From assembly GCF_009649075.1 (NCBI RefSeq), contig NZ_CP045737.1, positions 496,001-560,000 on the forward strand: a DNA stretch of 64,000 bases. Reading direction: 5' to 3'. The notes under the pieces were generated by a model. It did no database searches. It worked only from the letters and a program-made list of their open reading frames with translations, and was not told where the DNA came from. Below are positions 26,123 through 29,778 of this stretch, piece after piece (positions within the stretch are counted from its first letter, which is position 1; each line of letters begins with the position of its first letter). The translations under genes were made by a program, and so were the position numbers. The stretch is from Aeromicrobium yanjiei (lineage in GTDB: Bacteria; Actinomycetota; Actinomycetes; Propionibacteriales; Nocardioidaceae).

Positions 26123-26746
26123 ATGACGGACTACTACCAGGGATCACTGCTCGACGCGGGTGTCGAGCCGCAGATCGCGCGGTTGGCGCCCGAGCGCACC
26201 CTGCTGTCCGGTGGTGCGTGGGTCGACGTCCAGCCGGGATGGATCAGCGGCTCCGACGACGTGTTCCTGTCCCTGCAGGGCCAGGTGCCGTGGCGCGCCG
26301 ACAGCCGGGAGATGTACGACCGGGTGGTCGACGTGCCGCGCCTGCTGGCCCACTACGGCACCCGTGACGCGCTGCCCCACCCGCTGCTGCTGACCGCTCG
26401 CGAGATGCTGTCCGACCACTATGAGCCCGAGCTCGGCGAGCGGTTCGCGACGGCTGGCCTGTGCTACTACCGCGACGGCCGCGACAGCGTCGCGTGGCAC
26501 GGCGACCGCATCGGCCGTGGCCGGACGAACGACACGATGGTCGCGATCGTCTCGCTCGGTGCCGCTCGTCGGCTGTCGCTTCGCCCGAGCGGTGGCGGGC
26601 CGCAGATCGGCTTCGCCCTCGGCCATGGCGATCTCGTGGTCATGGGCGGGTCGTGCCAGCGCACCTGGGAGCACGCGATCCTCAAGACCGCCCGCCCCGT
26701 CGGCCCGCGCATCAGCGTCCAGTTCCGCCCCCGCGGAGTCCTCTGA
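26123..26746 (+). CDS. AlkB-like 2-oxoglutarate/Fe(II) dioxygenase
   Basis: 207 residues. The iron ligands appear as HGD in SVAWHGDRIGRG (H-x-D) and the distal His in QRTWEHAILKT; the 2-oxoglutarate-binding Arg is in GPRISVQFRPRG (R-x5-R). CYYRDGRDSVAWHGD is very close to AlkB-family alkylation-repair enzymes, which oxidatively remove methyl groups from DNA or RNA bases. TAGGCT at 26111-26116 supports the ATG. No ada or alkA gene is adjacent. Confidence 0.87.
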   Translation: MTDYYQGSLLDAGVEPQIARLAPERTLLSGGAWVDVQPGWISGSDDVFLSLQGQVPWRADSREMYDRVVDVPRLLAHYGTRDALPHPLLLTAREMLSDHYEPELGERFATAGLCYYRDGRDSVAWHGDRIGRGRTNDTMVAIVSLGAARRLSLRPSGGGPQIGFALGHGDLVVMGGSCQRTWEHAILKTARPVGPRISVQFRPRGVL

Positions 26747-26755
26747 CCCCTGCCC

Positions 26756-26818
26756 CCCGGGGCGGTGCGCCAGCGTCCACAAAAGCCCCGTGGCTGGACG
26801 CCAGCGCACCGCCCCGGG
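26756..26818. repeat. Palindromic element, copy 1 (upstream of the AbiEi-like gene)
   Basis: Perfect 15-base arms CCCGGGGCGGTGCGC (26756-26770) and GCGCACCGCCCCGGG (26804-26818), extended after a two-base mismatch by GCGTCCA/TGGACGC. The 18-mer TGGACGCCAGCGCACCGC (26795-26812) recurs exactly at 27866-27883. It follows the alkB stop by nine bases, so it could also terminate that transcript. Confidence 0.8.
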
Positions 26819-26904
26819 TCCACAGGGGGCTTGGGGGTGCGCGGTCGTGCACAGACGGTTGCCCGGGCCGTACGTCAGTGGCTGGACGGCCGCACGGTGG
26901 TGGG

Positions 26905-27909
26905 ATGCCCCGTCCTCTGCCAGTGCCGGATGAGCTCGCCTCTCGCCCCTTCACCGCGGCCGAGGCGCGTGCACTCGGCCTCAGCGAGAAGGTCCTGCGC
27001 GGTAGCCGATTCCGCCGGGTCTTCGTGCGGGTCTGGGTGCACCGCGACCACGTCATGACGCGGGAGGACTGGATAACGGCAGCCTCGCTCGCGGTCCCTG
27101 AGCGCGCGCACCTCAGCCACGTCACGAGGCTCCAGGCCCTGGGTCTCGACGTCGGGCCCGAGCGTCCATTTCACTTCACGGTGGCCGGCGACCTGCACAT
27201 CGCGCTCGACGACATGTTCGTCCATCGGACGGAGGTCCTGCCGCCCTTGGACAGCGTCGGTGTCACGCCGGCTGCGGCGTTCATCCAGTACTGCTCGACG
27301 GCTCGCCTGATCGACGCCATCAAGGTGGGCGACTGGCTCCTGTACCGCCAGTACGCGACGATCGTCGAGATCGCGGAGCTGGCCGCTCGCGATCCGTGGC
27401 GCCCGGGCGCGAGTCAGGCGCGTCGGGTCCTGCCTCACCTGGAGCCCCGATCACGCTCGTTGAAGGAGTCGGAGACGCGGGCGCTCGTGGTGTTCTCGGG
27501 CCTGCCCGTGCCCGAGTCCAACGTCGACCTGGTCGTCCGGGGGAAGTGGCTCGGGTGCGTCGATCTGCTGTTCCGGCTCTGGATGCTGGTCCTGGAGTAC
27601 GAGGGACGCCAGCACGCGGAGTCGATCGAGCAGTTCGGCAAGGATCTCGCCCGCTATGCCGGTTTCCGCGACGAATCGGTTGCGTACCTGCAGGTCACCA
27701 ATCCCATGCTCCAGCGCCCGCGGGCGCTGGTGGGCCGGGTGCACCGGATGCTCGTCGAGCGAGGCTACGACGGGCCGGAGCCGGTCTTCGCGAGGCGCTG
27801 GGCCTCGCTGTTCCGCCCCATCCCCTCGGAGGGCGGTGCGATGGCGTCCAGCAGAGTGGTGAAAGTGGACGCCAGCGCACCGCGCCGGGGGAGGGGGGTG
27901 CGGCCCTAG
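26905..27909 (+). CDS. AbiEi-antitoxin-like N-terminus with DUF559 (Vsr-like) endonuclease fold
   Basis: 334 residues. The N-terminus (about 10-60) resembles the AbiEi winged-helix domain (FTAAEARALGLSEKVLRGSRF). The C-terminal part (about 210-300) has CVDLLFRLWMLVLEYEGRQH followed by DLARYAGFRDESVAYLQV, the DUF559 pattern with putative D, E and Q/H metal residues. Such proteins are common, usually alone, in Nocardioidaceae-type genomes; their function is not established, and no AbiEii toxin is adjacent. The last about 25 residues (from GGAMASSRVV) are encoded by palindrome copy 2, so the native C-terminus may have been replaced. No strong ribosome site precedes the ATG at 26905. Confidence 0.72.
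   Translation: MPRPLPVPDELASRPFTAAEARALGLSEKVLRGSRFRRVFVRVWVHRDHVMTREDWITAASLAVPERAHLSHVTRLQALGLDVGPERPFHFTVAGDLHIALDDMFVHRTEVLPPLDSVGVTPAAAFIQYCSTARLIDAIKVGDWLLYRQYATIVEIAELAARDPWRPGASQARRVLPHLEPRSRSLKESETRALVVFSGLPVPESNVDLVVRGKWLGCVDLLFRLWMLVLEYEGRQHAESIEQFGKDLARYAGFRDESVAYLQVTNPMLQRPRALVGRVHRMLVERGYDGPEPVFARRWASLFRPIPSEGGAMASSRVVKVDASAPRRGRGVRP
27833..27883. repeat. Palindromic element, copy 2 (inside the 3' end of the AbiEi-like gene)
   Basis: 18-base arms with one mismatch: GCGGTGCGATGGCGTCCA (27833-27850) and TGGACGCCAGCGCACCGC (27866-27883), loop of 15 bases. The second arm is identical to part of copy 1 at 26795-26812. It is translated as roughly residues 310-327 of the protein and may also end transcription towards typA. 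Confidence 0.78.
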
Positions 27910-27912
27910 GGC

Positions 27913-29778
<1,866 letters not shown>

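Follow-up and report, generated by a model that had tools for sequence, protein, structure and literature searches.

The window (the whole 64,000-nucleotide stretch analysed, from the 3.68 Mb genome of Aeromicrobium yanjiei, G000) contains a solitary gene for a two-domain protein, bracketed by two palindromes and lying between an oxygenase gene, whose Pfam family is taken here to be AlkB, and a convergent typA/bipA gene (Table 1). No AbiEii toxin partner gene adjoined it in the window, the immediate neighbours being the AlkB-like oxygenase and TypA.

Table 1. Coordinates, within the window, of the gene, its neighbours and the flanking half-sites
Feature	Position	Strand	Basis
Upstream neighbour, AlkB-like 2OG-Fe(II) oxygenase (place marker)	26123..26746	+	Pfam PF13532, E 2.6e-15
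Upstream array, half-site 1, GGTGCGCCAGCGTCCA	26764..26779	+	Palindrome arms
Upstream array, half-site 2, inverted, 31 bp from half-site 1	26795..26810	-	Palindrome arms
TCCACAG motif between upstream array and gene	26819..26825	+	Common in homologue loci
Weak half-site 3 (2 mismatches), 41 bp beyond the upstream pair	26836..26851	+	Half-site spacing survey, locus L046 position 1432
Solitary gene (ATG at 26905, stop codon 27907-27909), AbiEi-like DNA-binding domain and Vsr/I-Bth0305I-like nuclease domain, 334 aa	26905..27909	+	Reading frame, PADLOC, AlphaFold, Foldseek/VIA
AbiEi-like region, residues 3-180	26911..27444	+	VIA alignment to 6y8q
Predicted recognition helix, SEKVLRG codons, residues 27-33	26983..27003	+	Model helix 28-31; co-variation with half-site
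Vsr-like nuclease domain, residues 183-289	27451..27771	+	Matches to 3r3p, 3hrl and 1cw0; invariant residues
C-terminal tail, translated downstream array and following bases	27835..27906	+	pLDDT <50 at residues 311-333; mostly absent from aligned homologue matches
Downstream array, half-site 1, within reading frame	27835..27850	+	Palindrome arms
Downstream array, half-site 2, inverted, 31 bp from half-site 1	27866..27881	-	Palindrome arms
Downstream convergent neighbour, TypA/BipA (place marker)	27913..29778	-	Pfam BipA_C, E 2.6e-44

The protein itself had no Pfam or NCBIfam match, and its domains were recognised from PADLOC AbiEi profiles, which matched residues 16-113 (E 2.6e-6), and from an AlphaFold model with a mean pLDDT of 90 (24-row alignment). 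The N-terminal fold matched 6y8q and 1zel by Foldseek/VIA, residues 3-180 aligning with the Streptococcus agalactiae AbiEi antitoxin 6y8q at a VIA Z of 8.8 (rmsd 4.9 over 171 residues; Foldseek probability 1.00). Residues 185-288 aligned with the catalytic domain of the homing endonuclease I-Bth0305I (3r3p; Z 9.3, rmsd 2.4, 95 residues) and residues 183-287 with Vsr (1cw0; Z 7.9), and the nuclease domain also matched 3hrl (Z 9.0); absence of a structure from a VIA or Foldseek listing was regarded as uninformative. The matches to 3r3p and 1cw0 indicate a PD-(D/E)XK fold of the Vsr type, with Pfam support among relatives only, where DUF559 and REase_MTES_1575 (MTES_1575) each matched 8 of the 24 aligned homologues. 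A preceding sequence-only reading had labelled the gene AbiEi/DUF559, and both parts of the label are backed, the first by the PADLOC profiles and structure matches and the second by these matches in relatives. Residues E188, D220, E231, H237 and Q243 were invariant in the 24 homologues and are predicted from the fold to be catalytic. No Transposase_17 (HUH) domain occurred among the Pfam matches of the 24 members at E 0.01.

The palindromes bracketing the gene are both 47 bp long and follow the pattern GGTGCGCNNGCGTCCA-N15-TGGACGCNNGCGCACC, with a single mismatch in the downstream copy and 15 nt between the arms in each; the upstream one extends to 26756-26818, with 24-nt arms that are 92% complementary. 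As the sequence-only reading had stated, they share an exact 18-mer, TGGACGCCAGCGCACCGC, at 26795-26812 and 27866-27883 (1071 bp apart), and the downstream palindrome overlaps the end of the gene, falling within the reading frame from codon 311 onward. Most of the 24 aligned homologues stop near codon 311, these aligned ends being the ends of search matches, and residues 311-333 were left disordered in the AlphaFold model (pLDDT <50). An Rfam search of the window at gathering thresholds gave no match.

Homologues were sought in 49 genomes of the genus and found in 44, and 70 loci were compared (30 from the first search and 40 fetched, the remaining listed matches being left out). The upstream 260 bp of each locus was compared by local score with its own downstream flank, with non-own pairs as the null. 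Own-flank pairs had a median score of 57 versus 23 for non-own pairs (95th percentile 37), with 63 of the 70 homologues above that percentile; the own downstream flank was the best of 70 partners in 47 cases, and the own-pair mean was 64.4, as against a largest mean of 29.7 in 2000 permuted pairings. At 195 control places in the window, the median was 23 and the maximum 34. Seven loci failed the flank test (L047, L051, L055, L064, L075, L107 and L108); half-sites were still present on both sides of L047, L051 and L055, as judged by eye, and L108 contained more than two in-frame stops. The sequence-only reading had proposed to examine whether homologues are flanked by hairpins of the type seen in the window; homologues are generally flanked by repeats of their own, but TGGACGCCAGCGCACC is only this clade's type and the others differ. 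In a wider sample of 20 loci not titled Aeromicrobium, drawn from a set of 80, the same test was passed by 17. Its members were Mumia, Nocardioides, Flexivirga, Klenkia, Blastococcus, an Actinomycetes MAG and Nocardioidaceae MAGs, which could include Aeromicrobium members; six further loci (L319, L325, L332, L339, L362 and L363) were excluded as belonging to, or resembling, genomes already in the genus set (G032, G040, G018). The arrangement in the window exemplifies a system that is general in Aeromicrobium (Nocardioidaceae) and that, to judge from the flanking repeats, appears to be present in other Actinobacteria also.

The upstream array lies approximately 130-180 bp before the start in most homologues. 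Between it and the gene, in the -110 to -50 region, TCCACA was present on the + strand at 61 of the 70 loci and in two copies at 29, with a spacing of 28-30 bp in 23 of those 29, and was rare in the other regions counted. TCCACA(G) resembles the core of an actinobacterial DnaA box. As a candidate component of the dispersed arrays described below, TCCACAG was rejected (8 seen versus 4.7 expected).

Patterns derived from the gene flanks were then searched in the 49 genomes, and reversed-pattern controls gave 0 matches in the type A, B, C, D, GTTCCACC and Blastococcus/Klenkia searches. Type A, the type of the window (the 47 bp pattern GGTGCGCNNGCGTCCA-N15-TGGACGCNNGCGCACC with 3 mismatches allowed), was present in 15 of the 49 genomes, the reversed control being 0 in all 49. 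It occurred at 6 places in G000 (2 at the gene and 4 elsewhere), at 13 in G006, 25 in G008, 12 in G045 and 13 in G036; a search of the own genome with the 16-mer arm at up to 2 mismatches gave 30 matches versus 14 for its reversed control. Type B was found at 14 places in G010, 9 in G020, 7 in G023, 5 in G042, 4 each in G036 and G038 and 1-2 in four more genomes. Type C, derived from the G042 gene, was confined to G042, where it occupied 17 places (2 of them at the gene), with 0 in the 48 others; type D matched 11 times on each strand in G021, at most 5 times in G006 and 0-3 times elsewhere. The GTTCCACC type, carried by the fetched genes of G031, G041 and G043, was found at 5, 5 and 4 places in those genomes (2 each at the gene in G031 and G043, none in G041) and at 0 in the 46 others. 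Outside the genus, the Blastococcus and Klenkia genomes contained 9 and 3 places of their own gene's type, 2 at the gene in each case, with 0 in 12 other genomes; the L377 genome, one of these 12, had no match in this Blastococcus/Klenkia pattern search, though a related half-site lies upstream of its gene. Gene and sites were not always matched. G008 has 25 type-A places, yet the 4 family members examined there (of 10) carry no type-A half-site, and G010 (type B), G020 (GTCGAACC type) and G045 (type A) had no matching gene among the family members checked. Across these four genomes, no cognate gene for the orphan sites was found in 17 loci, bar a stray one-mismatch match at L218, and these orphan families were counted against the best explanation.

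The repeat unit is a half-site of approximately 16 bp, with a constant outer GGTG box and a variable inner box. Searching the own genome with one arm alone revealed five inverted half-site pairs, each exactly 31 bp apart, and one inverted pair at 62 bp with another half-site between. In 31 type-A loci, which were selected by a pattern fixing one inverted pair at 31 bp so that 33 such pairs follow from the pattern, the further half-sites formed 13 tandem pairs at 31 bp and 3 pairs at 41 bp, with a few other spacings seen once each. Independently of any pattern, the outer length of the gene-flank palindromes was 46/47 bp in 62 of 78 and one helical turn more (56/57 bp) in 9, and was equal on both sides of the gene in 33 of the 39 measurable genes among the 70. 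At variable arm positions, the arms of type A (n=45) matched about as often as independence predicts and those of type B (n=25) less often than expected under independence; the arms of type C (n=14) were also uncoupled except at position 7 (0.79 versus 0.48), which was counted against the best explanation. This general lack of coupling argues against recognition of a hairpin single strand, making it unlikely that the protein recognises hairpins, and the importance that the sequence-only reading had attached to the hairpin form was not upheld. The repeats look instead like arrays of double-strand half-sites.

That reading had also named an outcome that would count against it, namely the occurrence of such hairpins all over the genome as plain terminators, independently of DUF559 genes. 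Palindromes do occur away from the gene, but they are not plain terminators and their types are specific to one or a few species. The idea that the repeats are simply intrinsic terminators that happen to be alike draws on their position after stop codons and on arms that can form a hairpin, and is extremely improbable given that the sequences are species- and gene-specific, that the half-sites also stand in tandem at helical spacing and that the arms are mostly uncoupled. Furthermore, inspection of the sequence revealed no T-run after either palindrome arm, and a search for terminator-like sites with a T-run gave 0 in 26600-28000, its loop limit of 3-8 nt excluding a 15-nt loop.

Co-variation between protein and half-site was assessed in the 38 of the 70 genes whose half-site could be measured. 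Genes alike in the inner box tended to be alike in residues 27-33 (r 0.48; partial r, corrected for overall identity, 0.41, reached in 0 of 5000 permutations), a relationship that shared ancestry may inflate despite the identity correction. When 342 seven-residue windows were scanned, the top seven fell within residues 23-35, the SEKVLRG window was among the three best, and the best window clear of the helix reached 0.21. On this comparative evidence, no other part of the protein co-varies with the variable box as strongly as the recognition helix does. Readings of helix against box, made after the table was seen, paired SEKVLRG with GCGTCC (4 of 4 genes, including two that share just 45-52% identity with the query), PLKVLRG with GGGCCC (one gene), R.L(E/D)H helices with CCACC (10 of 11 genes) and R.(L/F)Q(G/H) helices with CAACC (7 of 8 genes, the exception being L065). 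L323 (TDRMLQG, CAACC) fits these readings, and L310 and L312 (K29, GTCCC) are compatible with them; the Mumia locus L309 (SERVLRG, R29, GCGTCC) breaks a strict K/R rule.

The surroundings of the dispersed sites were surveyed at 84 loci, comprising 24 of the 25 type-A places in G008, 14 of the 15 dispersed type-C and 1 of the 5 type-B places in G042, 12 loci in G006, 4 in G000, 12 type-B loci in G010, 7 in G020, 5 in G023 and one each in five more genomes. By rough GC3-based ORF calling, 69 of the 84 stand next to the 3' end of at least one gene (31 have convergent neighbours, 35 tandem ones and 3 a single neighbour), at a median distance of 23.5 bp from the stop codon (100 ends); 10 lie inside ORFs, which was counted against the best explanation, 4 between divergent genes and 1 elsewhere. 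This distribution bears on the possibility that the arrays are operators of an AbiEi-derived repressor with a regulon. According to PMC7319586, AbiEi, like Rv2827c, binds inverted repeats located in its own promoter, and the distance of the upstream array from the start in most homologues would suit such a role. A repressor of this kind is nevertheless very unlikely, as the dispersed arrays stand at 3' ends and seldom between divergent genes, the presumed nuclease residues are invariant in the 24 homologues, and the downstream array of the gene would be left unexplained.

Grouped by neighbouring sequence, the 84 loci represent 52 places, 18 of which are common to two or more genomes and 34 of which were seen in one genome only. 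Half of the shared places (9 of 18) carry different types, and in 44 orthologous pairs the palindromes coincide in position to within 150 bp, 20 of these pairs differing in type. At the place represented by L134, an array was present in 17 of 30 fetched genomes, with the TAG of the first half-site at the same spot in the array-bearing genomes; the remainder comprised 7 with a short gap and no array, 1 with a longer insert and 5 with no single gap. ORF calling placed the stop of the preceding gene at that TAG in L134, L175 and L003. G042 and G021 carry an old-type first half-site beside new-type ones at this place. G013 and G037 have neither a gene homologue nor an array there, and the array is also absent in genomes with homologues, such as G025, G019 and G033. 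With types assigned by eye and the incomplete genes of G036 and G048 left out, 12 genomes allowed the types of both the place and the close homologue to be read, and the two agreed in 9 of them (expected 3.5, p 1e-4), or in 9 of 15 (expected 3.7, p 2e-4) when the less comparable G026, G002 and G045, with fetched genes of yet other types, were added; the disagreeing genomes G008, G020 and G038 were counted against the best explanation. At the same place in G020 (L283), a further half-site type, GGTCGAAC, was observed, with no matching flank in the five G020 family loci checked.

The spacers of orthologous sites bear on the route of type change. Spacer similarity was 0.56 for sites of the same type (n=24) versus 0.32 for sites of different type (n=20), against a null of 0.33, and at a matched flank identity of 82-86% it was 0.43 (n=9) versus 0.22 (n=6). 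The spacers of different-type orthologues, usually non-homologous, suggest that the unit was replaced and not simply altered by base changes, which was counted against the best explanation, and mutation in place as an account of every type change is unsupported for A/C to B, where the spacers are unrelated. Two A-C pairs keep their spacers (0.69). By these comparisons, the change from A to C may be a base change in place, and in that from A/C to B the unit itself looks to have been replaced where it stood.

By neighbouring sequence, the 70 genes occupy 11 shared places and 6 single ones. At the alkB-typA place, all five type-B genes group with that of G035 (type E) in a single clade, the type-A genes fall into two, and for G010 and G008 the gene tree disagrees with that of alkB; this disagreement and the type-B clade indicate that cassettes with their flanks have probably been exchanged between lineages, which could explain orphan sites as left from an earlier resident gene. 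The sequence-only reading had proposed a comparison with empty sites in relatives; in G013 (L142) this place is cleanly empty and without an array, with 3 bp between the two stop codons, whereas in G045 (L141) the gene is gone and a remnant is left, made up of one half-site, approximately 100 bp of other sequence and a whole palindrome. No family member and no site of the searched types was found in G013, and G045 keeps 12 type-A sites. At another place, L068 (G031) and L172 (G042) share the same neighbour gene, followed by a cassette in the former and a solo array in the latter (69% over 483 bp). An apparent inversion of the gene between alkB and typA was rejected, as the signal came from unoriented minus-strand loci.

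These exchanges and empty places, together with the non-homologous spacers of different-type arrays, the cassette and solo array at one place in G031 and G042, the 34 places seen in one genome only, and an organisation matching that of RAYT-REP as described in PMC2817692, could be taken to indicate REPIN-like mobile elements, in which the nuclease would excise and copy arrays and the gene cassette itself would hop. This interpretation is considered unlikely, as 18 of the 52 dispersed places are common to at least two sampled genomes, the L134 place retains its array in more than half of the fetched genomes, spacers of unrelated sites are only slightly more alike within a genome (0.38) than between genomes (0.33), and the genes themselves are confined to so few places. 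The suggestion of the sequence-only reading that the gene is an actively mobile unit was likewise not supported by the limited number of gene places and the many dispersed sites conserved in position.

The system is best explained as a solitary, sequence-specific DNA-binding endonuclease with half-site arrays at its own gene and at the ends of other genes, an account considered probable. The AbiEi-like winged helix would read a half-site of approximately 16 bp, and monomers would occupy duplex DNA as tandem and opposed pairs at a spacing of about three (or four) helical turns. Recognition sites would be arrayed on both sides of its own gene, with solo arrays elsewhere in the genome, mostly just downstream of stop codons and numbering 1 to 25 found per genome and type. 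Matching flank arrays, genome-specific copies, helical spacing, little arm coupling and co-variation with the helix were established by comparison of sequences, and binding of the protein to its half-sites is strongly supported by the same comparison. The Vsr-like domain may nick or cut at or near the arrays, and the upstream array may mediate autoregulation as in AbiEi. The dispersed arrays would be long-lived sites that are retained through binding or activity of the protein there, whether as a boundary or roadblock at gene ends or as maintained targets of a selfish nuclease. The matching flanks, dispersed copies, co-variation and Vsr-like domain make a Vsr-like enzyme reading its own sites, in a RAYT-REP-like organisation, a good description. 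The sequence-only reading had speculated on a Vsr-like endonuclease acting on its own palindromes in the spirit of REP-associated tyrosine transposases; of this, the fold, the own palindromes and the pairing of a nuclease with cognate sites stand, the connection of gene and palindromes extending more widely than that reading had proposed, action on the sites is inferred, and hairpin recognition and active mobility do not find support.

A more speculative and somewhat doubtful extension is that the nuclease and its sites constitute a self-rewriting system across the chromosome, in which a domesticated or selfish drive keeps many sites in register with one protein. Specificity would change through the recognition helix or through replacement of the cassette, and arrays at fixed places behind stop codons would be overwritten with the new type, either by nuclease cut-and-copy or by selection.

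Comparison with described systems indicated several partial resemblances. According to PMC2817692, the enzyme gene of RAYT-REP stands alone between inverted copies of a palindrome that is dispersed in the genome, usually in more than 100 copies, with enzyme and palindrome changing together and orthologues at one place having different palindromes. The present system resembles it in an enzyme gene flanked by two inverted repeat copies, dispersal of the repeat in the same genome, co-variation of enzyme and sites and differing types at orthologous places; unlike the RAYT-REP of that account, it has an AbiEi-Vsr-like rather than HUH enzyme, 1-25 dispersed copies found, half-sites at helical spacing with little arm coupling, and hosts among soil actinobacteria. 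The N-terminal fold is shared with the AbiEi antitoxins of type IV AbiE systems, including Rv2827c, and inverted repeats upstream of the own gene with spacings differing by 10 bp are reminiscent of the AbiEi promoter, where, according to PMC7319586, inverted 23-bp repeats lie 3 or 13 bp apart. Unlike AbiE systems, no toxin partner adjoins the gene in the window, and unlike AbiEi, the protein has a fused nuclease domain and sites that also lie downstream and dispersed. The system works like RAYT-REP, which it matches in organisation, or like an AbiEi-operator system, which it matches in DNA binding, and is neither, a defining feature of each being absent. The C-terminal domain has the fold of Vsr and of the EDxHD homing endonuclease I-Bth0305I; unlike Vsr, no mismatch-repair context was seen at the gene, and in relation to homing endonucleases, the empty place in G013 is without an array and one place has a solo array in G042 and a cassette in G031. 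In Neisseria, the Ssn GIY-YIG nucleases are encoded near their own dispersed NTS repeat targets, which are single-stranded. The present nuclease gene similarly lies near its own dispersed repeats; the differences are its nuclease fold and the single-strand nature of the Ssn targets.

Literature searches, confined to open-access papers, turned up no account of such a system. It is easy to overlook solitary DUF559/AbiEi-like genes as stray defence genes, and the present comparison suggests that their DNA targets are readable from their flanks. The system would represent a second, unrelated solution to what RAYT-REP does and a natural record of DNA-binding specificity switched at many chromosomal sites, with a correspondence of recognition helix to base that is open to in vitro testing. 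Elsewhere in the own genome, a DUF559 match below the family cut-off (L078, G000:C2:2843181-2846381) lies among several short GATGAGGGTTTGCGG-type palindromes, possibly representing another such family of gene and palindrome.
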